Assembly (NCBI RefSeq): GCF_900636545.1
Contig: NZ_LR134290.1
Coordinates: 3,782,001-3,846,000, forward strand
DNA: 64,000 bases
DNA from: Pseudomonas mendocina
Lineage (GTDB): Bacteria > Pseudomonadota > Gammaproteobacteria > Pseudomonadales > Pseudomonadaceae
Direction: 5' to 3'
Shown here: positions 23,521 through 38,953 of the stretch, in pieces
Layout: every line of letters starts with the position of its first letter
Numbering within the stretch: the first letter of the stretch is position 1
Program-made: the position numbers and the translations under genes
Notes under the pieces: generated by a model
Databases searched by the model: none
Seen by the model: the letters and a program-made list of their open reading frames with translations, nothing else
What the model was told of the DNA's origin: nothing

Positions 23521-24699
23521 TTAGCCCACCTCTGCCCCGCCCACTGAACCGTCGGCGTCCCCCTGGTAGATCTCGACCCTATTACGCCCGTCACGTTTGG
23601 CCTGGTACAACGCCTTGTCAGCCAGGTTCAGCAGGTACTGCAGGTCATAGGTGCCCCACTCCACCGCCACCAAGCCAATACTCACACTCTGTTCACGGCC
23701 CTTGGGCGCCAACGCGGAGAAACCGACACGGATACGCTCGGCCAGCGCCAGCGCATCGGTAGCGTTGCCGTCGATCAGGCAGGCGAACTCTTCGCCACCG
23801 ATACGCCCGAACACGTCGCTACGGCGCAGGCTCTGGGCAACACCGGAGGCAAAGGCCTTGAGCACACGGTCGCCCTCCTGATGGCCGAGCTCATCGTTGA
23901 TCGCCTTGAAATGGTCCAGGTCGAAGGACAGCAGCGCCACGGGGCGGCGCTGACGCTGACACAGGCTGAGCAGGCGCTCGCCCGCCTCGAAGAAGGCGCG
24001 CCGGTTGCCGACGCCGGTCAACTCGTCGGAATACGCAGCCTGACGGAATTGCTTTTCAGCACGCTCCTTGACCATCGACAGCAGCATGAAGGCGATGCCG
24101 ACGGCGTACAGCATGCTTTCGATCAGCACGAGGGTGAACAGCGGGTTCGACTGAATATCGCCGTAGCCGGTCATGCCGGGGCCAAGGAACATGCGCGCCA
24201 GCAGAAACATCAGGTGCAGGCTGACAAGCACTGCCATGGGCACCACCGATACCTCGAGCCTGAGCCGAGCCCGCCAAAGCTCGACCAGCGCGGCCAGCAG
24301 ATACAGACTGGCGATCAGAGTATGCACGGCGACCCGCGCCGCCAGGCTGTTGTAGAAGGTCGGCCACAGACACAGCAGCGCCCAACATGCGGCACCCGCG
24401 CAGACCCAGGGATAGGATGGCGCGCGACCGCAGAACACGCGCATCACCGACCAATTCATGGCAATGCACAGCAGCAGCACGATATTGCCCAGCACGATGG
24501 GCACCCAATCGAAGCTGCCACCGCGCAGGGCATTGAGCACCAGCCCCAGGGCGGCCAACAGCATCATCGCGCCCGTCCATAACAGGGCCCGCTGCTGGCG
24601 CCCCTGCGACCAGCTGAAGATCAACAACACCCCACACAAGCTGATCACCGCCGTGCTGGCAACTAACAGGGTGGGCAGGTGCAACTGCAACATCAACAT
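23521..24699 (-). CDS. Membrane diguanylate cyclase (GGDEF)
   Basis: A 392-aa protein with about six to seven N-terminal membrane segments (residues 8-215), then a GGDEF domain (about 225-380) with FDLDHFKAINDELGH and the active-site RIGGEEF near residue 300. An RRSD inhibitory I-site lies five residues before GGEEF, so product inhibition by c-di-GMP is expected. It should synthesise c-di-GMP in response to a membrane signal. Start is the first ATG, with GGAAG upstream; a second ATG lies two codons on. No EAL domain. Confidence 0.92.
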   Translation of the reverse strand: MLMLQLHLPTLLVASTAVISLCGVLLIFSWSQGRQQRALLWTGAMMLLAALGLVLNALRGGSFDWVPIVLGNIVLLLCIAMNWSVMRVFCGRAPSYPWVCAGAACWALLCLWPTFYNSLAARVAVHTLIASLYLLAALVELWRARLRLEVSVVPMAVLVSLHLMFLLARMFLGPGMTGYGDIQSNPLFTLVLIESMLYAVGIAFMLLSMVKERAEKQFRQAAYSDELTGVGNRRAFFEAGERLLSLCQRQRRPVALLSFDLDHFKAINDELGHQEGDRVLKAFASGVAQSLRRSDVFGRIGGEEFACLIDGNATDALALAERIRVGFSALAPKGREQSVSIGLVAVEWGTYDLQYLLNLADKALYQAKRDGRNRVEIYQGDADGSVGGAEVG

Positions 24700-24786
24700 C
24701 GAAGAGCTTCCAAGGCTTTTCAGTAAGCCTTCCTGACCTACCAGACATGGCCTGTACGATAGCTGAAAGCCGCTCCGAGAACACGG

Positions 24787-27501
24787 TCAAAGCCTCGCCA
24801 GTATCGCCTCCAACACCTGCTGCGGCGCCTCGTGCCAGAGGCCGTAGCTCAGTGGCAGGGTTTCCAGGCCAGCGCGTGTCAGTACCAGATAGCGCTCCAG
24901 TTCGAGGAAGCCCTCGCCCTCCCCCGGAAAACCGATCAGGTCGATGGCCAGGCACTTTTCGCCACGGCGGCAGAACAGATCCAGCACCTGGCCAGCCAGC
25001 GGATAATGGTTCCAGACGCTGACGCCCTGGGCCTGCAGTGCTTCGCACAGGGTCTGTCGCGCCGCATCGGTGGCGCCGGGTTGCCAGAGCGCGCCGGGCT
25101 TTTCGAGGTACTCCAGATAACGGCGCAGCAGGTGCGTAGCCGGCAACTGGCGCTCGTCGCCGCTGAACAGCAGCACCTGGCGCTCGCGGGCGCGGGTGAT
25201 GGCGACGTTGAACAGGTCGGCGCGGTTCAGGTACGCCGCAGCCTGGCTCGACTCTCTATCGACGGCGAAGCTGAGGATCATCAGGTCGCGCTCCTCACCC
25301 TGGAAACCGTAGGGCGTATCCACCAGCAGGCGGAACTCGCGCAATCGTTCCAGCGGCAGGGTTTCGCCGATGCGCAGACGGATGCGCTCGACCTGATCAC
25401 GAAACGGCGACAGCACACCGATGCTGGGCTTGAGCGGGCTGCCCTGGTACTCGGCCAGATGCGCCGTGATCAGCGCCAGCACGCGCTCGACCTCCGCCTC
25501 GTTGACCCCATTGCGCCCGCGCTGGCCTTCGATGCGCAGCAGTTGCAGGCTGTCGCAGGCATCGAAGCCTGGGCGCTCCTTCATCACCCGCAGACGCTGG
25601 TCGTAGAACAGCTCGTTGCTGAAGCGAATCAGCGCCGGGCGGCTGCGAAAGTGTTCGTCGAGAAACACCACGGCGTCCTGGCTGGCCAGTTGCAGGCCGA
25701 CCAGATCCAGCACGCTGTTGTCACGGTAGCTCCAGGCCTCGCGCGCCTCGGGCTGCAGGCCGGCGCGCTGCAACAGCTGGGCCTCGCGCACACGGGAGAG
25801 AAAGGAGATGTGCCGCAGCTGACGTGCATCGCCGGTCACCACCGCGCGTTTGCAGCGCTGGAAGGCCGGCAGCGCCGAAGCGATATCGCACTGGGTCGCC
25901 TCGTCCATCACCATCACGTCAAACAGTTCCGGGCGCAGCGGCAGCAGCCGATGCAGCTCGTCAAGCGTCACCACCCAGATCGGGAAGGCCGCGAGCAGGC
26001 GCGCCGGGTCGATATCCTCGAACAGGGCTAGTTGGCGCTGCGAATTGCGCGCGCGGATGGCCTGGTTGTAGCGCACGAACAGCCCACGGTCGGTCATCAA
26101 CAGGCGCTTGAGCGCCAGGCTGCGGTGGCTGTTGAGGTGCTCGCGACTGAGCGACTGACGGCGCCGCTGACAATCGCGCAACTCGTCCAGCAACACCCAG
26201 GGCCAGACGCTGTTACCGATGCGCTTGCGTACCCAGGGCACCTGCAGCCAGCGTTGCCAGAACGCCAGACTGCCGCGTTCGGCACGCAGCAGCAGGCGAC
26301 TCCAGCGCACAGCCTGCTCGCAGCGCTTGCGAAAATCAGCCGACAGGCGCACCTCGGCCTGGGTCAGCACCTCCAGCTCGCTGCGTTGACGCGCCTCCAA
26401 TTGCTCGGAAACCTCGGAAATCTCGCCCTGCAGCATGCGCTGCAGTCGCTCGCGCAGGGCCTGGCGCAGGCTCTGGCCGTCGCCTTCGAGCACACCGTCA
26501 CGCAGGCCGAAATCCTCGCGCAGCTTGTGCGCGATGACCCGCACCGCCTGCGCGCTGCGGCTGACCAGCAGCACGTTCTCGCCCTGCAGGTAGCGATCCA
26601 GCGCCAGGGCCGCCAGGCTGTAGCTCTTGCCGGTACCGGGTGGGCCGGAAATCTGGCTCAGTGGATAACGCGCGGCATTTTCCAGCGCTCGGCATTGAGC
26701 GGCGCTGAGCTGCGCAGGCAGGCGCTGCGGCGTGCTGATCGAGCCAGTGGCCTGCACGGCAGACGCTTCACCGAGCAACTGCAACAAGGCCGGCGAAAGC
26801 TGCTCGGCCTCCTGCAGCAGTTGCAGCTCATGGGCAATGCCGCGACTGCCGCTGCCGCGCGGCACCAGGGCGACGAAGGCACCGGCCTGCAGCGACAGGC
26901 TGCGGCGACGCTGAGCCTTGGCCAAGGTCTCGACATCTGCCAGCTGCGGGAACCCCGCCGCCTCACTGACTTCGCCCACCTGCGTATTGCGCTCTACCCA
27001 GGCCAGCAACTGCCCAAGGGTGGCGACGTCCAGCCTGCCTGTCGGCAGCGGTAATCCATCGAGGCTATCGCTGCCGCTCTCATCGAACAGACGGCGCAGC
27101 AAACGCCAGTTGCCATGGGCGCGCTGCACGTCGATGGCGAGCATCTGGCTCTGCCCGTCGGCCGTTGCCTGCAGGTTAGCCTCGTAATAGAACAGCGGGC
27201 CACAGATCGCCTGCGAGGCGCCGCTTTCCAGCTGCAGCCGGCCACAGATCGGCAGCACGCCGTAGACCAGTTGCAGTTCGCGTTGATACAGCGCCTGCGC
27301 CTCGGCCAGGCTGCGGCCCAGCTCGGCGGACAATGGCAGCAGCGGTATACCGCCGCTGGCCAGCTCCTCGCGCCCATCGAGCCAGGCCCAGCGGCTGGCG
27401 GGCAGCTTGCTCAGGTTGTCCAGATCCAGGTCGCGGCTGTCGGCCAGGTAGCAGCTGCGATAGAAGCCGAGCAACTGGCGGGCATGAGGGTGGTGAGCCA
27501 T
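24787..27501 (-). CDS. SF1 (UPF1-like) helicase with nuclease-like C-terminus
   Basis: A 904-aa protein. The helicase core has Walker A GPPGTGKS near residue 285, DEAT (motif II) near 530, TGDARQL (motif III) near 551, DEHFRSRPALIRFSN (motif IV area), YGFQGEERDLMILS and NVAITRARE (motif VI) near 763. After about residue 815 the sequence LCEALQAQGVSVWNHYPLAG, then VLDLFCRRGEKCLAIDL, resembles a VSR/DUF559-type endonuclease fold with D and D/E positions. A 70-plus-residue arginine- and glutamate-rich insert lies between motifs Ia and II. Its ATG shares a base with the PLD gene's stop (TGATG), so it is the last gene of the operon running from 38661. Confidence 0.85.
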   Translation of the reverse strand: MAHHPHARQLLGFYRSCYLADSRDLDLDNLSKLPASRWAWLDGREELASGGIPLLPLSAELGRSLAEAQALYQRELQLVYGVLPICGRLQLESGASQAICGPLFYYEANLQATADGQSQMLAIDVQRAHGNWRLLRRLFDESGSDSLDGLPLPTGRLDVATLGQLLAWVERNTQVGEVSEAAGFPQLADVETLAKAQRRRSLSLQAGAFVALVPRGSGSRGIAHELQLLQEAEQLSPALLQLLGEASAVQATGSISTPQRLPAQLSAAQCRALENAARYPLSQISGPPGTGKSYSLAALALDRYLQGENVLLVSRSAQAVRVIAHKLREDFGLRDGVLEGDGQSLRQALRERLQRMLQGEISEVSEQLEARQRSELEVLTQAEVRLSADFRKRCEQAVRWSRLLLRAERGSLAFWQRWLQVPWVRKRIGNSVWPWVLLDELRDCQRRRQSLSREHLNSHRSLALKRLLMTDRGLFVRYNQAIRARNSQRQLALFEDIDPARLLAAFPIWVVTLDELHRLLPLRPELFDVMVMDEATQCDIASALPAFQRCKRAVVTGDARQLRHISFLSRVREAQLLQRAGLQPEAREAWSYRDNSVLDLVGLQLASQDAVVFLDEHFRSRPALIRFSNELFYDQRLRVMKERPGFDACDSLQLLRIEGQRGRNGVNEAEVERVLALITAHLAEYQGSPLKPSIGVLSPFRDQVERIRLRIGETLPLERLREFRLLVDTPYGFQGEERDLMILSFAVDRESSQAAAYLNRADLFNVAITRARERQVLLFSGDERQLPATHLLRRYLEYLEKPGALWQPGATDAARQTLCEALQAQGVSVWNHYPLAGQVLDLFCRRGEKCLAIDLIGFPGEGEGFLELERYLVLTRAGLETLPLSYGLWHEAPQQVLEAILARL

Positions 27502-28190
27502 CAGTTACCTGCGTAACGCGCCCAGAGCGCGTCGAATTCACGACTGTAGGCAGCGACCAGTTGTGGATGGTCGATCACCAGCAGGTTTTCCTCGTTGCTG
27601 GTGGTGGCGCTGCGCGTCCAGTTGAAGCTGCCGTTGAGCAGCAGGCGACCGTCGAACAGGGCGAACTTGTGGTGCATATGGAAGGGCCCGGCGTCGATAC
27701 GCAGCGGCACGCCCTTGTCGCGCAGCCACTGGATATCGCTGCCCTCATCGAACTGTTTTTCGTTATCGCTGATCACTCGCACGGCGATACCACGCTGGTG
27801 GCAGGCGAGGATTTCCTCGCTGAGCTGATCATCGGAGATGGTGTAGACGCAGATATCCACGCTGCTGCGTGCCTGGCGGCACAGCTCGCGAATCTTGCGC
27901 CGGCAGCTCTCGCCGGGGCTGAAGTGCGCCGTGGCGTGTTCCACACGCGGCGCGCTGCCAACGCTGTCGAGGGTCTTGACCACCTGCTCCAGCCACTTCA
28001 GTACCGGCTCGACGTTCTCCGGCTCGCGCATCAGCTCACGCGCCAGGGCGAAGGCGCGGTTGCGCATGAAGCGCACCTGGTCAGTACTCAATTCGCTGCC
28101 CAGTTGGCGCAGCTCGTCGCGCTCCTCGTTGCTCAGACGCAGATCGGCCAGGCTGTCACGCAGTTGCTGGTCGAGGCGATTGAAGTCCAT
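27501..28190 (-). CDS. Phospholipase D-superfamily nuclease, single HKD motif
   Basis: A 229-aa protein with a helical N-terminus (1-95) and one PLD domain: CVYTISDDQLSEEI, VRVISDNEK, and the active-site HHKFALFD (His and Lys near 172-173, Asp near 178) followed by NGSFNWTRSA. One HKD motif means a homodimer is needed for catalysis, as in the Nuc endonuclease and mitochondrial PLD6 groups. No signal peptide, so it acts in the cytoplasm, most likely on nucleic acid. It lies 12 bases after the rhomboid gene and its stop overlaps the helicase start. Confidence 0.88.
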   Translation of the reverse strand: MDFNRLDQQLRDSLADLRLSNEERDELRQLGSELSTDQVRFMRNRAFALARELMREPENVEPVLKWLEQVVKTLDSVGSAPRVEHATAHFSPGESCRRKIRELCRQARSSVDICVYTISDDQLSEEILACHQRGIAVRVISDNEKQFDEGSDIQWLRDKGVPLRIDAGPFHMHHKFALFDGRLLLNGSFNWTRSATTSNEENLLVIDHPQLVAAYSREFDALWARYAGN

Positions 28191-28202
28191 GAAAAATCCC
28201 TT

Positions 28203-28757
28203 TTATCGATGGTTGCGGCGAGGGCGAGACAAGGCGGCATAGAGAACGCCGCAAAAAGCCCCCGCCAGGTGGTATTCGAAGGAAACACCGGCACGCGGCA
28301 GCAGGCCGAAGAACCAGCCGCCGTAGAGGAAGAACACCAGCACCGCCAGTAACAGGTCGAGCAGGCTGCGTTCGAACCAGGCCCGCGCCAGCAAAAGGCC
28401 CCAGAAGCCGAACAGCCAGCCACTGGCGCCGACGTGCAGGCCGGTGCGGCCGAACAGCCAGACCAGCACCCCGCTGCCGATGATGATGAAGGCGCTGGCG
28501 ACGAAGAAATCGCGGCGCGAGCGCAGCAGAACCAGGCTGCCGAGCACCAGCAGGCCGCTGAGGTTGCTGAGCAGATGCGCCCAGCTGCCATGCAGCCAGG
28601 GCGCGAGCAAGATGCCCGGCAGTGCCTCGATATGCCGGGGCACCAGGCCCCAGAGATTCAGGGCGCCACCCAGGGCGCCATTGGCCAGTTGTATCAGCAG
28701 CATCGCGCCGCTGATCACCAGCAGTGGGCGCAGCTCAACCAGCCAGCCTCGCCTCAC
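28203..28757 (-). CDS. Rhomboid-family intramembrane serine protease
   Basis: A 184-aa protein with about six membrane segments. The rhomboid catalytic dyad appears intact: serine in GASGWLFGF near residue 110 and histidine in EYHLAGAFCGVLY near 161; WAHLLSNLSGL supplies the conserved H and N of the second segment. It should cleave membrane proteins within the inner membrane. The GTG start overlaps the AAA+ ATPase stop as GTGA, a firm translational link; the PLD gene follows after 12 bases. Confidence 0.9.
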   Translation of the reverse strand: MRRGWLVELRPLLVISGAMLLIQLANGALGGALNLWGLVPRHIEALPGILLAPWLHGSWAHLLSNLSGLLVLGSLVLLRSRRDFFVASAFIIIGSGVLVWLFGRTGLHVGASGWLFGFWGLLLARAWFERSLLDLLLAVLVFFLYGGWFFGLLPRAGVSFEYHLAGAFCGVLYAALSRPRRNHR

Positions 28758-31700
28758 GGCGCCTCGTCGTCCGCGGCATCGCTACGCTGCTGATGGCCGA
28801 GCAACGTGCCGAGGTCGCGCAGTTGGGTGGAGATTTCCAGCATGCGGTTGTGGGTGCGCAAATCGATGTCGATCTTCTTGTCCATCGCCTTGATCAGCGG
28901 CAGGAAGCTGTTTTCCAGACTATCGGCCAGGCTTTCGAGCAATTTTTGCGTGCCCGGCTGAGGCGGCGCAACCACCTCCACCTGCGGGCGCAGCTTGCCC
29001 AGATTTTCCAGTCCGGCCAGCAACTGCTGCCAGGGAATGCTCGGCGTCTCGCCGGCCGGTTTAGCGGTAGCGCCCAGACCGCGCACGCTTTCCACCAGGT
29101 CGTTGAGCTGCGCCACCACACGCCCACCGACATCGCTGTCGCTGCCACCCATGGCCTTGTTGCGCATGAAGTCGCGCTTGATCTGCGCCCAGCGCTCGGC
29201 CTGCTCGGGCGTCTGGTTGCCGCGCAGTTCGGCGAGCTTGAGCAGGTTCTCCTCGGCGCCGGTGGTGAGCAGCTGCGACTCGCCCTGATAGTGGTCGGCA
29301 ATCAGTTGCAGTAGCTCGGCATCGTTCATCACCGCGCTGATCTTCTCCGCCATCTTGTTCATGTTGCGATAGCTGCCCTGCAGCTTGAACGGCGGCTCGG
29401 TGCGGTAGCTGTCGGCCTGCGCAGCGCTGACGATGTACTGCTGGTTGACCCGACCGACCACATCGCGCACCTGCATCAGACGCTGCAGGGTCGAGGTGAT
29501 CTCGTTGATCTCGGCGGCGCTGTAAGTGTGGCTCAGCTCGTTGGCCGAGAACGGCTTGCCCTCGGCCTTGGCGACGAAGCGATACACATCGGCCATGTCG
29601 CGGGTGGCCAGCGGCGCCAGCACCGGGTTGGAGGTCAGGCTGTTCTCGATATAGCTCAGCGCGAAGGCTTCCTGCATGCCGCCCAGGGTGTCGCCGAGGT
29701 TGTAGATGTCGGCACGGTTGGCGAGCATGTCGGGGATCTTGAACACATCGCCAGACTCGGTGTACGGGTTGCCGCTCATCACCACGCAGAACTTCTTGCC
29801 GCGCATGTCGTAGGTCTTGGTCTTGCCCTTCCACACACCTTCGATACGCCGCGTGCCGTCGCACAGCGAGATGAATTTCTGCAGGAATTCGGGGTGGGTG
29901 TGCTGGATGTCATCGACATAGAGCATCACGTTGTTGCCCATTTCCAGCGCCAGGTTGAGCTTTTCCAGTTCCTGGCGCGAGGTGGCGTCCGGCGCCTGCG
30001 CCGGGTCGATGGAACGTACCTCGTGGCCCAACGCCGGGCCGTTGACCTTCATGAAGATCAGGCCGAGGCGGTGCGCCACGTATTCCATCAGCGTGGTCTT
30101 GCCGTAGCCGGGCGGCGAGATGAGCATCAGCAGGCCCATCAGGTCGGTGCGCTTGTTCTCGCCAGCGGTGCCCATCTGCTTGGCCAGGTTGTCGCCGATA
30201 AAACCCAGGTACACATCGTTGATCAGCTTGTTGCGCACGAACGACGACAACGGCCGTGGCTTGAATTCGCTCAGACGCAGTGCATCGCGCTCGCGGTTGA
30301 TGACTTCCTGGCGTAGCGCCTGGTAGCGCTGCAGTTGCGGCACGAAGTGATCCAGGTGCTGCTGCAGGCGCGCGAAGTAGTCGTCTATGGCCAGCAGCAG
30401 CGTGCCGTCCTGCACACGCGGATGATCGCCGAGCAGGCCGCTGACGGTGAAACGCAGATCGACCTCGGTGAAACGCCGCGGGAATTCGTCATCCAGCAGG
30501 CTGACGGCGATCGCTTCGGGCACGTAGTCGGCCAGCTCGGCCATGCTGGCGTCCTGCGCGCACAGGCCGTCGAACCAGGTCTGCGCCAGCAACCAGCGCT
30601 GCACCGGGCGGCCACGCAGGTTGTCCAGCGCGGCGCGGTAGTCGTCCCAGACATGGCTGGCCTGCATGCGCTGCTGCAGGGTGTCGAGCAGTTGCCGGGC
30701 ATACTTGCTGAAGCTGAACTCGATGGGCTTGGCCGCCAGTTCCTCGACCAGATAGGCCGCTGCCGCCTGGCGCTGCGCCGCGTCCACTGGCAACGGGTGC
30801 TGAGCGAGGAAGCGCTGCATGGCCGCGTCGATCTCTTCGCGCAGGCGCTGCACGCCATCCTCGCTGCCGAACAATTGGCGCAGGTGCAGGCTGCTGCGCG
30901 CCCGCTCCGGCCACAGCTCGGCCTCGATGTCCTGCCCCCAGCGGTTCCAGAACAGCGCGGCAAAGCCCCGCGCCGCCGGCGCGTAACGCAGCAGCCCGGC
31001 GCTTTCGCGAAGCGGCAGCAATTGGGCGAGGATCAGCGCGGCGTCGTGGTCATGGATGCCCTTCTCGTAGGCATCCTTGTAGCGCGGCACGGCGAAGTCG
31101 CGGATCAGGCGAGTCAGGGTTTCCGGCTGCGCCAGGTGGGTCTTGAGCAGATCCAGGCTCAGGCCTTCACGGCCGGCCACGGCGGCGTCGAGCACCAGGC
31201 CGGCGAGGTATTCGGCGCGGTACAGCGAGGGCGACTCGGATTCCAGCGACACCTGCCAGTAATCGCGCAGGCCGTCCAGCGTCTCGTCATGCAGCGGTTC
31301 GAGGAAATCGGTGCCGGTCAGGTGCAGATAGAGCTGATCACCACGTGGCATCAGGGTCAGGTCGAGTTCCTGGGTATTGACGCTGAAGCGATGGCGCGGG
31401 CCGAGCTTGATGACGTTGCCGCCCTCCTCGAACAGCTCGCTCTTGTCGCGCAGGGCGCGCACCGCCTGGTCGCGGGCGGCCTTCAGGCGCGCCTCGACAT
31501 CATCGGCCTTGACGCTGTCCTTGAGCTCGCGCAGGCGCTCGGCCATCTCGCGCAACTTGAGGATCAGCGGATCGGCGGCGAAGAAGGCATTGAGCTCTTC
31601 CATCTGAGTCAGGCGCGCAGTGCGCCGGCCCAGGCTGTCGAGGATGCGCCGGGCGGCATCGAGCACGCCCTGGGCACGGCGCTGGCGGTCGTCGAGCAGG

Positions 31701-33994
31701 CTCTGCTTGTGCGACTCGAAGGTCTCCAGCAGCTCTTCGCGCTTGCCGAGGATGTCGCTGAGGAACTCCTCGTGATCACCGAACTGGCTTTCCAGCTCTT
31801 CGAGCTGCACCAGCAGGCGCGACAACTGTTCGTCGCACTTCTCCGGGTCCTGCGCCAGCGCCAGGGCGTTCGTGATGCCCTGGCTGAACAGTTTGAACTG
31901 GGCGCCGAACTGCGCCACCGTCTCGGCCGAGCCCAGGCCCTTGCGCCGCTGCTCGGCACGCGCCTTGGCCTGGTTGAGGTGGGCGTAGACCTCGGAAATC
32001 GACTCGACGATGGCGGTGCGCTGGGTGGCGTCGTCGATCTTCAGCGAGGCCATCAGGCTGGAGAGCATGTCCAGGTTGCCGGCCATGGCCTGCATCTCGG
32101 CCAGCGGCTCGTTAAGTTGGGTGACGCTTTCGGCCTTCTGCGCCAGGCCATCCAGTTCGCTCAGACGCTGTACGTAGGGCTGCAGCGCGGCGTCGCTGGC
32201 GAGGAAGGCGGAAGTGGCAGTGGCCACGCGCTCCTGCGCTTCCAGCAGTTCGGCCTCCATGGCATCGATACGCGCCACGTCGATGTAGCGGTAGTCGCGG
32301 ATGGTCAGCAACTGGCCGCGTTGGGCATTGATGCCATTGAGCGCTTCGACGAAGTGCTGCACCTCGTCCCAGCTATCCACCAGCAGGCCGGAGAGCAGGC
32401 TCTTCTGTCGCGTCTCGGCCTCGGCCATGGCCCGGGCGGACTGCTGGCGGATGCTCTCGACCTTCTCGAATTCATCGAGCACCAGCTCGCCAGTGGCGGC
32501 AATCTCACGCAGCAGAGGCGCCAGCTCGGCGCACTGGGCGTCACCCAGCCAGTGGTAGACATCGAACAGGCGACGGGTGTTCTGGCACAGCTGGGTGTAG
32601 CGCGCCACCGACACTTCGCGGTTGTCGATCTCGCGACTGAGGCCCAGCAGGTCGGACACGCCGCGTACCAGCTCGGCGTTGCCGATGCGCCCGAAGAAGC
32701 CGCTGCGCGCCGGCTGGCGGGCGGCGTAATCGTCGCTCTCGAACGGCGTCTGCCAGATCTGCATTGGGTGGATGCGAGTCGGCTCGCTGCCCTCGGCGGA
32801 GAAAATCACCATGCGCCCGTCTTCCAGGCGCGCGTAGCCGTGGCCGAAGATCGGGTTGTGCAACTGGCGGTTGATCATGTTGTAGGTGAACAGCGCCGAG
32901 CGGCCTTCTTCCGGGTGGTAGAAGATGTACTGCACGTCCTCGCCGTTGGGTGAGCGCACCGAGCGCTTGAAGCGCATGCCGCCCATAGGCTGTTCGAAGG
33001 TCTTGTACTCGCCGCTCTGCAGGTAGTAGCCGCCGGGGAAGATGATGCCGTGGTCTTCCGGTAGCTGTACACAGGCCAGGCCGATGGCGTCGATGCGCTC
33101 GACCTTGCTGGTCAGGCTGTTGAACACCAGGTAGCGCCACTGCTCTTCGCGGTACGGCAGGATCTTCAGCAGGATCAGGCTGCCCAGGCGGGCGTATTCG
33201 ATCTGCGCATCGTCCAGCGACTGGGTCTTGTCCACCACCGGCTCGCGGTAGATACCCAGGCCATCCTGGGTGTTGTTCTCGACCTTGATGGTGAGGTCGC
33301 CGCCGATGGTCTCGACGAATACGGTGTCGAGAATGTTCATGTGCGGATGGCGGCCGGTGACCACCATCTCGCGGGACGTCTTCTGCCATTCGAAATCGAA
33401 TGGCGCTGGCAGCGCGATATCGCGCTCGCCACGATTATCGATATAACGCACTTCGCGCCCATCGACGGAGATCGACCAGCGGAACACGCGGATATCGCTG
33501 ACCCGCTCGCCGATCTGGAAGCTCGCCAGCAACTTGCCGTCGCGGATGGCCAGTTGCAGCAGGCGGGTGTTCTTGTAGTAGGTGTACAGCTCGTTGAAAT
33601 CGGCGACGAAACTGGCCTGAGCGAGGAAGCTACCCTCCAGCGGCACCGGCTCGGCGTCGTAGCCTTCGGCACCCTCGACCAGGCGATAGAGGGAGAACAC
33701 ATCGGCGACCGAGGTTTCCTTCTTCAGGCCCATGAACACGTTGTAGCCGAACAGCAGGCAGTCACCGACCTGGACGATATCGCGGGCGATGCAGTTGTTC
33801 TCGGTGCGGATGCGCACCCGACCAATGGCTTCCATGGCGCTGCTGCCGAACTCGGCCAGGCGCTGGCCGTTGAGCGTTTCGGTCAGTGCGCGCAGGCGCT
33901 GGCCCTGCTCCTGCAGGCGCTTGTGCAGCACCTCGTAGGCGCCGCCTTCGGCGACGGCCTTGTCCAATACGTCCTGTGTTTGTGCGTCCGACAT
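28754..33994 (-). CDS. Giant AAA+ ATPase (DUF3686-type, 'DNA repair ATPase')
   Basis: A 1746-aa protein. Residues about 50-470 are beta-rich and look like a DUF3686/propeller-like region (VGDCLLFGYNVFMG, RYIDNRGERDIALP, IIFPGGYYLQSG). Residues about 480-880 are long Glu/Gln/Arg-rich coiled coil. After a helical region, an AAA+ module has Walker A PPGYGKTTLM near 1291, Walker B LYVDDIQHTHPEF near 1356 and the sensor SGNPYTESG near 1406. Strong AGGAAG before the ATG. Homologues are often called DNA repair ATPases without proof. It is coupled to the rhomboid gene by GTGA. Role in membrane remodelling or nucleic-acid response is inference from the neighbours. Confidence 0.85.
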   Translation of the reverse strand: MSDAQTQDVLDKAVAEGGAYEVLHKRLQEQGQRLRALTETLNGQRLAEFGSSAMEAIGRVRIRTENNCIARDIVQVGDCLLFGYNVFMGLKKETSVADVFSLYRLVEGAEGYDAEPVPLEGSFLAQASFVADFNELYTYYKNTRLLQLAIRDGKLLASFQIGERVSDIRVFRWSISVDGREVRYIDNRGERDIALPAPFDFEWQKTSREMVVTGRHPHMNILDTVFVETIGGDLTIKVENNTQDGLGIYREPVVDKTQSLDDAQIEYARLGSLILLKILPYREEQWRYLVFNSLTSKVERIDAIGLACVQLPEDHGIIFPGGYYLQSGEYKTFEQPMGGMRFKRSVRSPNGEDVQYIFYHPEEGRSALFTYNMINRQLHNPIFGHGYARLEDGRMVIFSAEGSEPTRIHPMQIWQTPFESDDYAARQPARSGFFGRIGNAELVRGVSDLLGLSREIDNREVSVARYTQLCQNTRRLFDVYHWLGDAQCAELAPLLREIAATGELVLDEFEKVESIRQQSARAMAEAETRQKSLLSGLLVDSWDEVQHFVEALNGINAQRGQLLTIRDYRYIDVARIDAMEAELLEAQERVATATSAFLASDAALQPYVQRLSELDGLAQKAESVTQLNEPLAEMQAMAGNLDMLSSLMASLKIDDATQRTAIVESISEVYAHLNQAKARAEQRRKGLGSAETVAQFGAQFKLFSQGITNALALAQDPEKCDEQLSRLLVQLEELESQFGDHEEFLSDILGKREELLETFESHKQSLLDDRQRRAQGVLDAARRILDSLGRRTARLTQMEELNAFFAADPLILKLREMAERLRELKDSVKADDVEARLKAARDQAVRALRDKSELFEEGGNVIKLGPRHRFSVNTQELDLTLMPRGDQLYLHLTGTDFLEPLHDETLDGLRDYWQVSLESESPSLYRAEYLAGLVLDAAVAGREGLSLDLLKTHLAQPETLTRLIRDFAVPRYKDAYEKGIHDHDAALILAQLLPLRESAGLLRYAPAARGFAALFWNRWGQDIEAELWPERARSSLHLRQLFGSEDGVQRLREEIDAAMQRFLAQHPLPVDAAQRQAAAAYLVEELAAKPIEFSFSKYARQLLDTLQQRMQASHVWDDYRAALDNLRGRPVQRWLLAQTWFDGLCAQDASMAELADYVPEAIAVSLLDDEFPRRFTEVDLRFTVSGLLGDHPRVQDGTLLLAIDDYFARLQQHLDHFVPQLQRYQALRQEVINRERDALRLSEFKPRPLSSFVRNKLINDVYLGFIGDNLAKQMGTAGENKRTDLMGLLMLISPPGYGKTTLMEYVAHRLGLIFMKVNGPALGHEVRSIDPAQAPDATSRQELEKLNLALEMGNNVMLYVDDIQHTHPEFLQKFISLCDGTRRIEGVWKGKTKTYDMRGKKFCVVMSGNPYTESGDVFKIPDMLANRADIYNLGDTLGGMQEAFALSYIENSLTSNPVLAPLATRDMADVYRFVAKAEGKPFSANELSHTYSAAEINEITSTLQRLMQVRDVVGRVNQQYIVSAAQADSYRTEPPFKLQGSYRNMNKMAEKISAVMNDAELLQLIADHYQGESQLLTTGAEENLLKLAELRGNQTPEQAERWAQIKRDFMRNKAMGGSDSDVGGRVVAQLNDLVESVRGLGATAKPAGETPSIPWQQLLAGLENLGKLRPQVEVVAPPQPGTQKLLESLADSLENSFLPLIKAMDKKIDIDLRTHNRMLEISTQLRDLGTLLGHQQRSDAADDEAP

Positions 33995-34137
33995 CGTGTT
34001 CTTCCTGGATATTCGGCATCGAGCACCCTCGCCTGTTCAGCCTGGCAAGGGAACTGGGAATGCGGGTGGCGCTTGCGCGGCGAAGCTCGGGCCGCAGCAA
34101 TCTGGCGTGCAGCGGATGGGCGAACCCATCCGGCAAG
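33995..34137. other. Gap within the stress/ATPase gene cluster
   Basis: 143 bases between the 80-aa gene stop and the ATPase start. Only the AAGG-type ribosome binding site of the ATPase is recognisable; no hairpin with a T-tract is visible, so readthrough into the ATPase gene is plausible. Confidence 0.4.
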
Positions 34138-34377
34138 TCAGGCGCCGATCTTCTTCTCGACGATGGCGATCTTGTCGCGCAGTGCTGCGTCGATCTCTTC
34201 GGGTCGAACCTGGGCAATGATCTTGCGCAGCACCCGTACTTCGTTGTCGTCGATCACGCCGTCACGCTCGGCGATCTCCAGCAGACTCTTGAGCTCCTGC
34301 GCATCCAGACGACCATCGTTGCTGAAGCACTGGATCGAGCGGAAGGTCATCTCCAGATAGTCTCGTGGCTCTGACAT
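34138..34377 (-). CDS. Small TerB-like acidic protein, 79 aa
   Basis: Begins MSEPRDYLEMTFRSIQ. The middle, NDGRLDAQELKSLLEIAERD, then GVIDDNEVRVLRKII, has two acidic loop-helix units like those of TerB/tellurite-resistance folds, which bind metal or interact with membrane stress proteins. AGGGA lies about eight bases before the ATG; a GTG one codon earlier is less likely. It is between the flotillin and the giant ATPase genes. Confidence 0.8.
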   Translation of the reverse strand: MSEPRDYLEMTFRSIQCFSNDGRLDAQELKSLLEIAERDGVIDDNEVRVLRKIIAQVRPEEIDAALRDKIAIVEKKIGA

Positions 34378-34439
34378 CACGTATTCCCTGATTGATCGAA
34401 ATTAGGTGGCCATGTACCGGGGCTCGGGCAACGGTTGTC

Positions 34440-34491
34440 GCGACTGAAGCCCCACCCACAATGAGTAGTGGTGGGCTGAAGCCCACCCTAC
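34440..34491. repeat. REP-like palindrome between flotillin and 79-aa genes
   Basis: GAAGCCCCACCC and the perfect inverted repeat GGTGGGCT-ga-AGCCCACC (34470-34487) followed by CTAC. This is the common Pseudomonas intergenic repeat type and could stabilise the upstream flotillin transcript. Confidence 0.7.
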
Positions 34492-34502
34492 AGGCAAGGT
34501 GC

Positions 34503-36545
34503 TCAGGCCTGCTCCGGGCCTGCGCTCGGTGCGACCGGCTGAGCTGCAGCCGCCTTACCGGCCAACAGGCGCGACAGCACGTCCTGCACCACCGGGCTCT
34601 TGCCGACCACGCCTTCGATGGCCTTGCCAACCGACAACGACTTGGCGAACGAGTTGAAGAAGTCGCCTTCGCCGCCGACGATCTCGATCTTCGCCTTGGC
34701 CAGCGCGGTGGCCAGCACTTCGGCCTGATCCTTGGCGATGTCCTTGTTCGCAGCGATAGCGGCCATGGCCTCCTCGAAGCTCTTCTCCAGCTGCATGCGG
34801 AACTCTTCGTGGGCACGGGCGTTGTCGCTGAGCGAATCCAGCGCGCCGAACTTCTTGCCCAGACCTTCGGCTTCGGCGTTCAGACGCTCCAGCAGCACCT
34901 GCGCCTCGGCCATACCCAGGTCCTGGGTGGCCTTGGCCTTGGCGCTGCCGAGTTGCTCTTCGCCGCGCGCCTGGGCGCCGAGTTTCTCTTCCAGCACCTT
35001 GGCGTCGGCCAGGCCGTCTTTTTCCTTGGCAGCCGCTTGTGCTTCGATGACACGCGCCTGCGCCAGACCTTTTTCCTGCTCGCCCTTGGCTTCGGCGATC
35101 AGGCGCTCGGCCTGTACGCGAGCCTCGGCCAGACCTTCCTTCTCTTTCGCCGCGGCGGTGACTTCACGCACGCGTGCATCGGCCAAGCCAGGTGCAGCGC
35201 GCTCGGCTTCGATACCTTCGGCCAGTTTCTTCTTCGCTTCGGCGCTCTTGGCCGCCGCTTCCAGCTCGGCCTGGGCCAGGGTGTTGATTTCCACTGCCTT
35301 GTGCTTGGAACGAGTCTCGTCGGCTTCTGCCTGCTTGACCTGGCGCACCAGCTCCTGCTCGGCTTCGGCCTGGGCATTGAGCACGGTGACCTGCTTGAGG
35401 CGCTCTGCCTCGGACACTTCACGCACTTCCTTGATGCGTTCTTCTTCCTGGGCCACGGTCTTCTCCACCGCCACGCGCTCGCGCACCACGGCGGCGATAT
35501 TCTTGCGCTCTTCTTCCAGCGCCTTTTCCTTCTCGATGCGCTGCAGCTCGACCTCGCGCTCGCGGGAGACCACTTCCAGATCCTTGGCGCGGGTGACCTT
35601 CTCCACCTCGATGACCACGGCACGCTGGCGATTCTGCTGGGCCACCTCCACTTCGCGCTGGTGGTTCTCGGCGCGGATGTCCAGCTCCTGCTGGGTCTGG
35701 ATTCGGGCCTGCTCGGCCTTCAGGCGCTCTTCCTCGCGTACCTTGAGGGTTTCCGCTTCCTCGCGGGCACGGATGGTCTCGATCTCACGCTTCTGGCGCG
35801 CTTCGGCATCAGCCTGCTGGCGCTCCAGCGACAGGGTCGCCTCGCGGGTTTCGACGTTCTTCTTCTTGATCGCCAGCTCTTCGTTGCGCTCCAACTCGTT
35901 GGTGATGACGTTCTGCGCGGCAGTCAGCTCGGTGATCTTGCGGATACCTTCGGCGTCGAGAATGTTGCTCGGGTCCAGCGACGCTTTGGAGGTCTGCTCC
36001 AGATAGTCGATGGCCACGTCTTCCAGCACGTAACCGTTCAGGTCGTTGCCGATCACTTCGACGATGCGATCACGGAAGTCCTGGCGATTCTCGAACAGCT
36101 CGACGAAATCGAACTGCTTGCCGACGGTCTTCAGCGCTTCGGAGAACTTGGCGTTGAACAGTTCGTTGACCGCCGCACGATCGGAGGCACGATCCACGCC
36201 AATGGCCTTGGCCACCTTGAGCACGTCTTCCTGAGTCTCGTTGACGCGCAGGTAGAACGCCACAGTGATGTCGGCACGCATGTTGTCGCGGCAGATCAGG
36301 CCGTCCTTGCCGCGACGGTCGACTTCCAGGGTGATCAGGGAGATCTTCATGAACTCCTTGAGGTGGATCACCGGGTACACCAGGGAGCCGGTGAAGTGCA
36401 CCTTGGGCGTCGAGCTCATGTCGTTGACAATCAGCGCGGTGCCTTGTGGAACCTTGATGTAGAAGGCCTTGAACAGGGCGATCAGGGCGATCACGAAAAG
36501 GACGACCAGCCCTGCCCCGACGATGAAGGGGATGAGGTTTTCCAT
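34503..36545 (-). CDS. Flotillin / YqiK-like SPFH protein
   Basis: A 680-aa flotillin. One N-terminal membrane anchor (residues 7-27), an SPFH/Band-7 domain (about 28-190: YIKVPQGTALIVND, VDRRGKDGLICRDNM), then a very long coiled coil rich in Glu, Ala, Arg and Lys (about 210-590) with repeats such as AAAKEKEGLAEARVQAE and AAAKEKDGLADAKVLEE, and a flotillin C-terminal region. It should oligomerise in detergent-resistant inner-membrane domains. Downstream of the YqiJ-like gene as in E. coli yqiJK. AAAGGAG precedes the ATG. Confidence 0.93.
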   Translation of the reverse strand: MENLIPFIVGAGLVVLFVIALIALFKAFYIKVPQGTALIVNDMSSTPKVHFTGSLVYPVIHLKEFMKISLITLEVDRRGKDGLICRDNMRADITVAFYLRVNETQEDVLKVAKAIGVDRASDRAAVNELFNAKFSEALKTVGKQFDFVELFENRQDFRDRIVEVIGNDLNGYVLEDVAIDYLEQTSKASLDPSNILDAEGIRKITELTAAQNVITNELERNEELAIKKKNVETREATLSLERQQADAEARQKREIETIRAREEAETLKVREEERLKAEQARIQTQQELDIRAENHQREVEVAQQNRQRAVVIEVEKVTRAKDLEVVSREREVELQRIEKEKALEEERKNIAAVVRERVAVEKTVAQEEERIKEVREVSEAERLKQVTVLNAQAEAEQELVRQVKQAEADETRSKHKAVEINTLAQAELEAAAKSAEAKKKLAEGIEAERAAPGLADARVREVTAAAKEKEGLAEARVQAERLIAEAKGEQEKGLAQARVIEAQAAAKEKDGLADAKVLEEKLGAQARGEEQLGSAKAKATQDLGMAEAQVLLERLNAEAEGLGKKFGALDSLSDNARAHEEFRMQLEKSFEEAMAAIAANKDIAKDQAEVLATALAKAKIEIVGGEGDFFNSFAKSLSVGKAIEGVVGKSPVVQDVLSRLLAGKAAAAQPVAPSAGPEQA

Positions 36546-36623
36546 TACAGCTTCACTCCTTTGCTAATTGTGCAGGCAGGTTCGGCATATCCTGCCTGCC
36601 CTCTGTTACGTACGGATGGTCGG

Positions 36624-37262
36624 CTAGACGCCACGAAACTCTTCTTCGGTAATGATGCGATAGGCGTGCTCGGCCGCCAGGTATTCCAACAGCACCACAC
36701 GGTCGCCGCGCTTGAAGCCCAGTGCCTCGTCGGCGCGCACGCGCAGAATCAACCCGGCGCCGCCGTCCTCCAACACCGCCTCGCCATGGCTGGCGGTGAC
36801 GCGGCCGCTGCGCACCACCGCCACCTGGCCCAGCACCGATTTGCTGCTGATCGCCTCGACCTTGTGAAACAGCGGGCGTAGCGGCCGGCAGATCGCTGCG
36901 CACAGAGGCGCTGCCACCACGAAGGCGCCAGCGATGACCACCAGCCCCAGCGGGTAGCGCAGAATGCCCAGCGGCAGGTGGCGCAGCAGCCACAGTTCGA
37001 CGAAGTAGCAGATGAACCAGCCGAAGAAGAACAGCAGCGTCAGCACCAGGGTAACTGGCACGCCGTCGAGCTTGAGCTTGTAGAGCAGGCCAGCGAGGCC
37101 TTCGGTCTGGCCGCCTTCCATCATCGAGTCGGCCTCGACATCAAGCAGGTCGACCTCGAGCAGGCCGGCGGCGACCACCAACCAATAGATGACCGCCACG
37201 CACAGCAGGAAGCTGTAGATGGCGGTGGGGAATGACAGAGCTGTCTGCAGGAAGAGTTCCAT
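36624..37262 (-). CDS. YqiJ/NfeD-like membrane protein with OB-fold
   Basis: A 212-aa inner-membrane protein with hydrophobic segments near 10-35, 72-95 and 105-130 and a C-terminal beta-barrel (about 140-212: VLGQVAVVRSGRVTASHGEAVLED, DRVVLLEYLA) of the OB-fold kind found in NfeD partners of flotillins. This matches E. coli YqiJ, which pairs with YqiK. AAAGGA before the ATG at 37262 decides the start over the ATG at 37298. Confidence 0.88.
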   Translation of the reverse strand: MELFLQTALSFPTAIYSFLLCVAVIYWLVVAAGLLEVDLLDVEADSMMEGGQTEGLAGLLYKLKLDGVPVTLVLTLLFFFGWFICYFVELWLLRHLPLGILRYPLGLVVIAGAFVVAAPLCAAICRPLRPLFHKVEAISSKSVLGQVAVVRSGRVTASHGEAVLEDGGAGLILRVRADEALGFKRGDRVVLLEYLAAEHAYRIITEEEFRGV

Positions 37263-37330
37263 GGCTTTCCTTTTCCCGAATCCATACGGCCGGAGCAATC
37301 GCTTGCACCGGCCGATTCATGCGCCCCTGA

Positions 37331-38026
37331 TCAGGCCTTGGACTTATCCTTCAGCCGGGCCAGCACACTGTCGGCACTGGCGTTGTCGGCCTTGATACCG
37401 GCCGCACGCAGCTTGGCTTCCAGCGAGTCGTCAGGCGCACTGGTGGCGGCCAGCTCGGCCGAGGCCTCCATCTTCGCCGCGCGCTCGGCCTGCTTCTGCT
37501 TGATGCGTTCGAGCGACTCGACCGCCGTCTGCAGCTTGGCTTGCGAGCCGCCGTAGCGCTGGGCCACGGCCATCTGCGCCTTCTGCACGCTCTCGGTGGC
37601 CTTGACCGTATCCACCTGCTGCTTGAGGCGCTTGATATTGCCCTCGGCCTGGGTCACGGCCTTGCGCAACTGGGCTACGCTGGCGGCGAAGCCTTCGGCC
37701 TGCTCGCGCTCGCTGGCCTGCTCGATTTCCAGATTGGCGATCTTTTCGGCCACTTCCTTGGCCAGGGTTTCGTTGCCGGCTTCGAGCGCCTTGAGTGCGT
37801 ACTGCTCGTACTCGGCGATACTCGCCGCGCTCTTGTTCGCCTTGTCGCTGGCCAGTTTGTGCTTGGCCATGATCTCGGCCAGCGCTTCCTTGGACTTGCG
37901 CAACTCGAGATCGGCGTCGCGGATTTCCTGATCGAGGATACGCAGCGCCTGACTGTCGACCACCGCCTCACCCATTTCATTGGCACCGCCACGCAGCGCC
38001 GTCAGCAATTTGCTCCAGACATTCAT
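37331..38026 (-). CDS. PspA/IM30-family membrane-stress protein
   Basis: A 231-aa coiled-coil protein of the PspA/ESCRT-III superfamily (YjfJ-like subgroup). It begins MNVWSKLLTALRGGANEMGE, an amphipathic helix, then long heptad-rich helices (KEVAEKIANLEIEQASEREQ, QLRKAVTQAEGNIKRLKQQ), as in membrane-binding PspA rods. No signal or membrane span. AGGAG before the ATG at 38026; the frame is open upstream to 38467 but inside the DUF2170 gene. Probably maintains the inner membrane during stress, without the classical pspBC genes here. Confidence 0.9.
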   Translation of the reverse strand: MNVWSKLLTALRGGANEMGEAVVDSQALRILDQEIRDADLELRKSKEALAEIMAKHKLASDKANKSAASIAEYEQYALKALEAGNETLAKEVAEKIANLEIEQASEREQAEGFAASVAQLRKAVTQAEGNIKRLKQQVDTVKATESVQKAQMAVAQRYGGSQAKLQTAVESLERIKQKQAERAAKMEASAELAATSAPDDSLEAKLRAAGIKADNASADSVLARLKDKSKA

Positions 38027-38040
38027 CGTCCTATCTCCTC

Positions 38041-38661
38041 TCAGGCGCCAGACTTGAGGAAGCCTTCGTAGGCTTCGGTGGCTTTGATCACGTTGTCCGC
38101 CAACAGCTCGATCTCGAACACCACGTCGGACAGGCTCGAGTAGGAACTCAGCGCACCGAACATGGTGTAGCAGCCACGGCCGTCGACCATCTTCTCCAGG
38201 CCGATGGACGACAGTGGGAACAGCTTGTGGGTACGCAACACTTCTTCGTTGAAGGCAGCGGCATCTTTCACGTCCGTCGCGGGCCAGAGCAGTGCTTCGA
38301 CGATGATCTGCTCGCCGAATACGGCGATGAACAGCGGCAGGTCGCCGTATTCGCGCATGGTGATGTGCAGGCTGGCGTCGGCGCCCTGAATCAGCTCGAT
38401 GCCGGCCTGGCCGTTTTGGAACAGTTCCGTTGCCGCCAGCGCTTCGTGCAGCGCCTGAGCGGTCCAAACTTGAGGCATATTCATACCCTCCTCCTTCTCC
38501 ATCGAAGCCAGCATTGACTGTGGCTGGCGCAGTTTGCGCTCGAACGCGACCAACAGCGGCGCATGCTCGGGCAAGATCCAGACCTCCTTCTTCACCAATC
38601 CCTGCTCGCGCAGGCGCTGACGATAAAGACGCTGGTAATGGGCTGATGATTTGCTATCCAT
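38041..38661 (-). CDS. DUF2170 (YjfI-like) protein with putative RHH N-terminus
   Basis: A 206-aa protein. The C-terminal part from MPQVWTAQALHEALAATELF is a DUF2170 domain like E. coli YjfI, the usual neighbour of YjfJ/PspA. The first 50 residues (YQRLYRQRLREQGLVKKEVW, ILPEHAPLLVAFERKLR) resemble a ribbon-helix-helix DNA-binding unit, strand VWILP then helix; this is my inference. If translation starts at the internal Met near residue 60, the extension is lost. It is the first gene of the minus-strand cluster, 14 bases before PspA. Confidence 0.82.
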   Translation of the reverse strand: MDSKSSAHYQRLYRQRLREQGLVKKEVWILPEHAPLLVAFERKLRQPQSMLASMEKEEGMNMPQVWTAQALHEALAATELFQNGQAGIELIQGADASLHITMREYGDLPLFIAVFGEQIIVEALLWPATDVKDAAAFNEEVLRTHKLFPLSSIGLEKMVDGRGCYTMFGALSSYSSLSDVVFEIELLADNVIKATEAYEGFLKSGA

Positions 38662-38953
38662 GAATTGAAGACTAGCCTCTCACATGTAAGCAGTAAAGCA
38701 ATTACATGTAATAAATGTGATGCCGTTCGTCAGACCAGCGCGCAGGAGTCATCCTCGGCAGAAAACGCCGAAGAATTCACGGGAATGGGAAAGAAGAGAG
38801 GCAGACACCCAGGCTCATCCATGATTCGAGCAAAACGCTTCCATTCGCGAAGTGTCGAATTAAACCGCAGACGCTTCCGTTGCGCACGGAAAAAAGCGCT
38901 AACCGGGTCGCAGTTATGACCCCGAACCCGCACCCCGAGAGACAGGCAGCGCC
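38662..38953. other. Divergent promoter region of the stress/ATPase operon
   Basis: 292 AT-richer bases between the DUF2170 gene (minus) and the 83-aa membrane-protein gene (plus). No gene seen. It contains repeated ACATGTAA sites at 38682-38711. On the minus strand a weak TTTACT - 17 bases - TAGTCT pair lies just before the annotated DUF2170 ATG, which would leave almost no leader; this favours either a different promoter or a downstream start. Confidence 0.5.
38682..38719. promoter_or_regulatory. Paired ACATGTAA sites, candidate operator
   Basis: ACATGTAA occurs at 38682-38689 and again at 38704-38711, exactly 22 bases (two helical turns) apart; the second is inside the perfect palindrome TTACATGTAA. 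A TGTGA half-site follows at 38716-38720 and mirrors the TCACA at 38680-38684. The layout suggests cooperative binding by a small dimeric regulator, possibly the DUF2170 protein with its RHH-like N-terminus. Confidence 0.5.

Follow-up and report, generated by a model that had tools for sequence, protein, structure and literature searches.

An extended bac operon in Pseudomonas mendocina and an apparent DNA-binding N-terminal domain of its first product, BacA

Introduction

The bac operon of Pseudomonas aeruginosa was described in 2008 (PMC2587700) and in 2024 (PMC10948618). According to the sections of these papers available to us, reverse transcription PCR links bacA through bacF in strain PA14 (PMC10948618), osmotic induction is reported for PA3731, and PA3732 (BacA) is given as a 16-kDa protein (PMC2587700). 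In a bacA mutant the remaining five Bac proteins were raised 6.1 to 13.5-fold, and an interaction between BacA and BacB is mentioned as unpublished (PMC10948618). In this study, we analyzed a window (the whole stretch of DNA, 64,000 nucleotides) from the 5.19-Mb genome of Pseudomonas mendocina, in which nine consecutive minus-strand genes occupy positions 24787..38661. The nine-gene cluster corresponds to the published bac operon (PspA, flotillin, NfeD-like protein, and AAA+ ATPase) with further genes added, and its core is therefore already known. The new part lies in the first gene: BacA carries an overlooked, conserved N-terminal domain which, judged from sequence, appears to be the operon's own DNA-binding repressor.

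Related operons have been described elsewhere. As far as the covered part of the paper goes, Ravi et al. (2024) reported a core of CesT/Tir-PspA, band-7/flotillin, a beta-propeller AAA+ protein, and YqiJ, with a phospholipase D-type (PLD) protein in some Proteobacteria (PMC11237479). The terms "rhomboid" and "helicase" are absent from the main text of that paper, and the part covered contains no operator or DNA-binding part of BacA. The words "DNA-binding" and "ribbon" are likewise absent from the text of the BacA paper (PMC10948618). The Escherichia coli relative yjfIJKL is reported, in an excerpt of the source, as up-regulated in heat-evolved strains (PMC12492005).

A preliminary description of this DNA, made from the sequence alone, named nine genes and read them as a response system. 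All nine reading frames are open, and the junctions it pointed out were found as described: the ATPase and rhomboid genes overlap as GTGA, the rhomboid and PLD genes are 12 bases apart, and the PLD and helicase genes overlap as TGATG. The gene overlaps suggest one transcript from the ATPase to the helicase gene. The envelope-stress reading also holds, as the cluster is a bac/Psp-type operon whose first half has been described in P. aeruginosa.

The N-terminal domain and start sites of BacA

The long form of bacA (38041..38661, minus strand) encodes a predicted protein of 206 aa, in which a conserved N-terminal domain (38527..38652, minus strand; KSSA.YQR..R.RLR..GL.KKE.W..PE) is joined to the DUF2170 (CesT/Tir) domain. 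The protein scored 351 bits against the NCBIfam equivalog NF050185, above the cut-off of 300. The crystal structure 8q8o aligns to residues 64-205 only; both the published 16-kDa BacA and the crystal structure lack the N-terminal domain. Conservation of the N-terminal 45 residues extends from Pseudomonas to Lampropedia, Lysobacter, and Gilliamella, and 18 positions are invariant in the 20 sequences compared. Codon variation by position was 0.19, 0.09, and 0.43 in this region (53 loci). Given this conservation and the highest variation at third positions, the N-terminal residues must be translated. We read the layout of the domain as helix-strand-helix. Its commonest Pfam match, weak and below the cut-off, was the MazE-like antitoxin family PF11455, detected for 13 of 20 members at E-values up to 1 (best 0.0094).

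Loci were compared in a set built by a search with the ATPase, from which the best 80 of 577 confirmed loci were taken (1.95 Mb in all). Start sites were counted in 59 sequences, the window and 58 loci; L033 and L080, for which no long start could be set, were left out. The long start is ATG in all 59. A TANNNT box was found at -13/-12 from this ATG in 54 of them, and a Shine-Dalgarno match of at least 5 nt preceded it in one. An internal start at codons 56-64 with a match of at least 5 nt was present in 51 of the 59, compared with 33 of 661 other in-frame ATG or GTG codons. In the window the internal start defines a short form of bacA (38041..38484, minus strand), preceded by the Shine-Dalgarno sequence AAGGAGG (38490-38496) and corresponding to the crystallized protein 8q8o. 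This pattern fits a long BacA that is probably translated from a leaderless message, with the internal start yielding a short, chaperone-only form. If true, part of the regulator is missing from the published BacA structure.

A candidate operator upstream of bacA

A tandem palindromic operator candidate of 32 bp, TTACATGTAA-N12-TTACATGTGA, was found at 38680..38711 (minus strand), with ACATGT cores 22 bp apart. It overlaps a promoter-like pair, TTTACT-N17-TAGTCT (38669..38697, minus strand), which has the downstream palindrome within its spacer; a stricter consensus promoter scan of 24600-38900 listed no promoter. The strict operator pattern has a single match in the whole genome.

ACATGT pairs were observed before bacA in 56 of 60 bacA loci, nowhere else in the 80 loci, and in none of the 20 loci without bacA. 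Fifty-three of these pairs were found at a set offset, and three (L013, L044, and L068) were added by inspection; the latter lie about 48 bases before the bacA match, where the predicted start is over-extended. The 60 loci include L075, whose bacA is 8 kb from the ATPase gene and is scored absent in the presence counts given below (59/80). The pairs stand just before the long start. Their cores are 13 to 29 bp apart, start to start, and the spacing is 22 or 23 bp in 44 of the 53 measured.

Among 119 genomes of the family, the strict pattern was detected in 18, all belonging to the 28 with a bacA match, and in none of the 91 without bacA. The strict site lies upstream of bacA in all 18 (within about 25 nt in 15, at about 115 nt in three) and is the sole site in 14. 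The strict pattern is missing from ten bacA genomes, six of which carry a looser ACATGT pair in the corresponding position. An operator-like repeat in the putative promoter of a regulator's own gene, conserved together with the regulator, is the arrangement expected of an autorepressor. Seven extra strict sites were found in four genomes of one genus (G358, G373, G384, and G395). They precede genes for LemA and an M48 peptidase, a 188-aa protein, and small membrane proteins (L130-L136), and a wider regulon is possible.

The rhomboid protease and PLD hydrolase beside the ATPase

A gene was scored as present when it lay within 7.5 kb of the ATPase gene; denominators of 79 and 78 omit loci that end too soon. 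Flotillin was present in 80/80 loci, the NfeD-like protein in 78/80, BacA and PspA in 59/80 each, and TerB in 32/80. The rhomboid was present in 49/79, the PLD in 54/79, and the helicase in 15/78 (three partial). The preliminary description had taken the half with these last three genes to be lineage-specific. This is correct for the helicase; the rhomboid and PLD are recurrent beside the ATPase. The co-occurrence search that it proposed came out divided. The rhomboid and PLD recur, with their order altered in some loci and the rhomboids forming one clade, but the helicase is patchy and none of the four other class-sample genomes with the ATPase has a rhomboid nearby. In L064 the PLD gene is ahead of the rhomboid gene, and in L049, L051, and L070 other open reading frames separate the ATPase and rhomboid genes.

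The rhomboid gene (28203..28757, minus strand; PF01694, 1.6e-20) encodes a predicted protease of an operon-linked clade, with the family match, GxSG serine, and catalytic histidine all present. Two linked copies missed by the residue pattern (L049 and L067) have both catalytic residues as seen by eye. Assignment to rhombosortase (TIGR03902) was rejected at 34.1 bits against a cut-off of 84. In a phylogenetic tree, 48 distinct ATPase-linked rhomboids formed one group against 20 others. When four more were added, all 52 ATPase- or PspA-linked rhomboids formed one group with support 97/90. Identical copies were excluded from the trees, as were ten loci duplicating the window's genome or close genomes of the genus; the 20 comparison sequences came from 20 of the 42 other rhomboid-bearing genomes of the class, mostly from the top of the list. 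Three of the four added rhomboids (L138-L140) come immediately after bacA-pspA, in yjf-type stretches in which neither a flotillin nor an ATPase was detected; the stretch of L139 also has DUF2491. Linked rhomboids were found in Pseudomonadaceae, Morganellaceae, Budviciaceae, Enterobacteriaceae, Saccharospirillaceae, and Cellvibrionaceae (families as labelled in the records), including enterobacterial loci without BacA and PspA.

The class sample comprised 229 genomes, of which five, this genome included, have the ATPase and 43 have rhomboid relatives. Taken with the clade, these counts mean that rhomboids as a family have no general tie to the ATPase; the linked subclade does have one, and it is not universal.

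The PLD gene (27501..28190, minus strand; PF13091, 5.1e-29) encodes a single-HKD hydrolase with a helical N-terminal domain. Its closest solved relatives are mitochondrial cardiolipin hydrolase/Zucchini (PDB 9lkx, 4.6e-29), followed by Nuc and NucT, and mouse Zucchini was the best Foldseek match of the structure model (pLDDT 86). As in the MitoPLD/Zucchini-Nuc proteins, a single HxKx4D motif is set in a PLD fold. The motif was intact in all 58 distinct copies listed, two of which (L110 and L115) are outside ATPase loci. The PLD also occurs in Lysobacteraceae. Its putative substrate is a phosphodiester, either lipid or nucleic acid.

The rhomboid and PLD might alternatively be passengers, functionally unconnected to the ATPase. 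Several changes of state were counted for each on the ATPase tree (7 for the rhomboid, 8 for the PLD), and the seven independent rhomboid differences are too few to show that the two change together. In the class sample, the four other genomes with the ATPase have neither gene close to it; one has the PLD on a separate small contig. Against this reading, the 52 rhomboids examined all fall into a single clade, drawn from two operon types and, by record labels, six families. Moreover, the 229 class genomes contain only one other PLD relative that spans the N-terminal domain, and its genome also bears the ATPase. We therefore consider the passenger explanation improbable.

The helicase and a possible role in defence

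The last gene of the cluster encodes an SF1 (UPF1-like) helicase (24787..27501, minus strand; AAA_11/AAA_12) with UPF1 and SEN1 as PDB relatives. It is a lineage-specific, patchy addition next to the PLD. The helicase is intact in twelve loci, which carry mendocina-group names, and partial in L003, L037, and L043. It was detected in five of 119 genus genomes, the window's own included; in G078 only its two ends are left, and in another of the five it lies outside this locus. Three helicase-less loci read in detail have a convergent gene of 575-639 aa after the PLD, TPR-like by eye. A 68% relative of the helicase is found away from the bac locus in G001, where it stands alone between a response-regulator gene and a patatin/Omp85 gene (L118:10701-16147). 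The nuclease-like tail noted earlier matched no family in profile searches and is a sequence motif only; its candidacy as a nuclease was dropped, as the structure model failed (pLDDT 37.4, 13 close sequences).

Among the PADLOC profiles, the helicase matched MkoC (2e-42) and MkoA, and the PLD matched DrmC (8.7e-11), MkoC, and MkoB. MkoA, MkoB, and MkoC are proteins of Mokosh anti-phage systems. The two proteins might form an anti-phage module, a Mokosh-like nuclease pair riding on the stress operon. Several results speak against this explanation, which we regard as very improbable. The defence-profile matches are partial, and full-length coverage of MkoA with MkoB, or of MkoC, was not found. 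The PLD occurs without any helicase trace in 39 of 54 loci, and recJ in the fetched flank of 39 of 80 loci indicates a stable chromosomal setting. No helicase relative was found in the phage set at E 1e-20; the plasmids gave one distant relative, at E 1e-40. Of the two signals suggested in the preliminary description, envelope stress is retained and phage entry is not supported; the Mokosh-type matches are partial.

Three distant full-length relatives of the helicase (1072-1135 aa) were found in L120-L122. A PLD-helicase fusion, prompted by the length of MkoC, was considered for these loci and rejected: of the nine operon proteins only the helicase matched, hence there is no evidence of fusion. 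Two of three other genomes with distant helicase relatives also have the ATPase, on different contigs, and this was not used as support.

Proposed autorepression by BacA

The N-terminal domain, the operator-like repeat, and the start sites, together with the published derepression in a bacA mutant, suggest that BacA directly represses its own operon and that its PspA-binding half relieves the repression. The proposal starts from features that are observed: gene content, linkage, the rhomboid clade, the repeat, and the start-site pattern. Long BacA, made from a leaderless mRNA, would repress as a dimer: its N-terminal domain would occupy the two ACATGT palindromes around -35 and keep the operon low. 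The C-terminal chaperone domain of CesT/Tir type would sense the state of the PspA homologue BacB. Membrane damage would change the pool of free BacB, and BacA would leave the DNA. Short BacA from the internal Shine-Dalgarno start may be a DNA-blind partner that tunes the switch. Once expressed, PspA would coat the damaged membrane, flotillin and the NfeD-like protein would form a scaffold, and the AAA+ ATPase would remodel the assembly. The linked rhomboid may clip unassembled or damaged membrane proteins. The PLD would hydrolyze its lipid or nucleic acid substrate, and the helicase would be a patchy add-on. DNA binding, the PspA switch and its direction, and the substrates of the rhomboid, PLD, and helicase are the steps that we infer.

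A number of observations weigh against this account. The match of PF11455 to the window's BacA is below the gathering cut-off (14 bits vs 22), which leaves the protein outside that family, and PF11455 matched nothing at E 0.001 in 99 genus genomes, this one included. Profile comparison with six PF11455 members was weak (hhalign probability 17%; five of six at 8-17 bits by hmmsearch, in a six-sequence set), and the N-terminal profile had no significant PDB match (best E 0.45). Four bacA loci (L033, L058, L060, and L080) have other repeats instead of the ACATGT pair. ACATGT persists in genomes with a KHE-type BacA, as TCACGTGTGA and TCACATGTGA in G361 and as one TCACATGTGA seen in G386, and ACATGT sites are still present with the KRE-type BacA of L139. 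The rhomboid is missing in 30/79 loci and the PLD in 25/79; none of the four other class-sample ATPase genomes has a rhomboid near the ATPase, with one weak match on another contig. Neither gene is therefore essential to the core. Finally, published work proposes sigma54 control, as far as the available text goes (PMC10948618; PMC2587700).

On this last view, the locus would be an ordinary bac operon under sigma54, in which BacA acts as a chaperone-type regulator through protein contacts only. An RpoN site and interactions of BacA with partners have been proposed in the portions of the papers at hand (PMC10948618; PMC2587700). However, in 61 regions no sigma54 site matching at least 10 of 12 positions was found within 250 nt ahead of the predicted long start (shuffled sequences, 15/1220), and looser sites were no commoner than in shuffles (4/61 vs 70/1220). 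In L030 (Geopseudomonas) and L032, which groups with it, the best looser site (9/12) falls inside the N-terminal coding sequence. A conserved -24/-12 site of the form GG-N10-GC upstream of bacA was not found in the loci examined, a set to which P. aeruginosa DNA does not belong. The sigma54 view also takes BacA as published, without the N-terminal domain. We consider it unlikely.

The repeats that replace the ACATGT pair partly track variants of the KKE strand in the BacA N-terminal domain. Before KKD-type BacA, an inverted TTTCATGTAAG/TTACATGAAAG pair was seen by eye in L060 and L080, and a CTTTCATGAAAG palindrome in L058. Two TCACGCGTGA sites precede the KHE-type BacA of G083. Inverted TTACATGAAAG/CTTTCATGTAA repeats were found before KRE-type second copies in L138, L151, and L152. 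In L033 (5600-5850) the N-terminal frame of bacA is broken and two TCACGCGTGA sites are present, as before the KHE-type BacA of L140; control may have passed to a second BacA. This covariation is suggestive. It is not clean, because the KHE-type G361 and G386 and the KRE-type L139 retain ACATGT sites; the bacA matches in G361 and G386 carry one in-frame stop.

The imperfect tracking of domain and operator variants, together with an N-terminal family match below threshold only, would also suit a model in which the N-terminal domain is real but does not bind this DNA, and another regulator binds the ACATGT pair. We judge this quite unlikely. The strict site is unique in 14 of 18 genomes, and a global regulator should have many. 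Furthermore, no site was seen beside the genes that have no N-terminal domain: G417, the only bacA of 28 without the domain, has no operator site in the stretch read, and E. coli yjfI, also without the domain, has no ACATGT within 500 bases.

The data are most simply explained if long BacA directly represses its own operon and BacB relieves that repression. With modest confidence, we regard the extended bac operon as a Psp-like envelope-stress system with the mechanism proposed here. If true, it explains why the whole operon rises when BacA is lost. In a broader possibility, for and against which the chances are close to balanced, BacA-type proteins would make up a family of repressors that act directly on stress operons. 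Each would join an antitoxin-like DNA-binding domain to a type III secretion chaperone fold, and the latter would read out PspA. A single gene would then yield two products, the long one leaderless and the other, chaperone-only, started internally, and the Psp response would be wired without PspF or sigma54. The membrane hub of rhomboid, flotillin, and AAA+ ATPase would be under the command of the same regulator, as would further envelope genes in one genus. The question at stake is how sensing and switching work in PspA systems outside the PspF/sigma54 model; a BacA repressor with a 32-bp operator would, if real, make it directly testable.

Other genes of the cluster

The gene names of the preliminary description are retained for BacA/DUF2170, PspA, the ATPase, the rhomboid, the PLD, and the SF1 helicase. 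TerB and flotillin are borderline, the NfeD-like protein is without a Pfam match, and the nuclease-like tail of the helicase is not kept. The bacB gene (37331..38026, minus strand) encodes a PspA/IM30-like protein of Psp type (PF04012, 4e-55). The bacC gene (36624..37262, minus strand), for an NfeD/YqiJ-like membrane protein with no match in the Pfam scan, was named from its position and from the description in PMC11237479. The flotillin-like SPFH protein is encoded by bacD (34503..36545, minus strand). Its call by Pfam is weak, as Band_7 was matched just below the cut-off (E 2.4e-4) and only with the N-terminal 301 residues scanned alone. In another locus a second, shorter SPFH protein (Band_7; L137:2920-3678) is encoded between the NfeD-like and flotillin genes.

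The TerB-like protein of 79 aa (34138..34377, minus strand) is a marginal match to PF05099 (24.6 bits vs a cut-off of 24.4). The AAA+ ATPase (28754..33994, minus strand; 1746 aa) has a DUF3686 N-terminal region (PF12458, 1.2e-206) and an AAA_5 match at residues 1289-1416. This genome has a single copy of the ATPase and one further rhomboid. The flotillin-TerB and TerB-ATPase gaps are 125 and 143 bases, wider than in a tight operon, and no terminator-like site was listed in either gap (scan of 24600-38900). A terminator between flotillin and TerB was rejected, as the hairpins there fold barely better than shuffles (z -1.36).

A GGDEF diguanylate cyclase gene (23521..24699, minus strand; PF00990, 2e-39) is located 87 bases downstream of the helicase gene and may belong to the operon. 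In 7 of 80 loci a relative comes immediately after the last bac gene (in L030 and L032, after the ATPase gene). This gene could tie the operon to biofilm control.

Comparison with known systems

The P. mendocina locus has BacA, PspA-like BacB, BacC, and BacD in the order described for the P. aeruginosa bac operon (BacA-PspA-NfeD-like-flotillin), and its BacA belongs to the BacA equivalog. Beyond these genes, it also has the rhomboid, PLD, helicase, and GGDEF genes. Its BacA reads as a 206-aa fusion, whereas the published BacA is a 16-kDa protein. With the CesT/Tir-PspA and band-7 operons, as presented in the covered part of PMC11237479, it shares the core, an ATPase with beta-propeller and coiled coil, and the PLD found in some of them; the rhomboid and helicase are not in the main text of that paper. 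The dyad of DUF2170 and PspA is also seen in E. coli yjfIJKLMC. There, in contrast, YjfI is without the N-terminal domain, no ACATGT lies within 500 bases, and no rhomboid is annotated in the stretch. Mokosh anti-phage systems have a related helicase and PLD-type protein, but the bac genes cover their profiles in part and lie in a stable genomic setting.

Our literature search found no paper joining a rhomboid with flotillin and NfeD, or a rhomboid protease with flotillin, in a bacterial operon. Quality control of orphan membrane proteins has been reported for other rhomboids (PMC7232013). The nearest analogy is the mitochondrial SPY hub (SLP2, PARL, YME1L) together with MitoPLD, as described in the portion of PMC12912694 available to us. 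The bac ATPase differs in that it matched no protease family, and homology of the whole systems is not claimed. The two have in common an SPFH scaffold, a rhomboid, an AAA+ enzyme, and a Zucchini/MitoPLD-like hydrolase at a membrane. A rhomboid subfamily tied to PspA and flotillin operons provides a genetic context, and hence candidate substrates, and parallels the mitochondrial SPFH-rhomboid-AAA+ hub.

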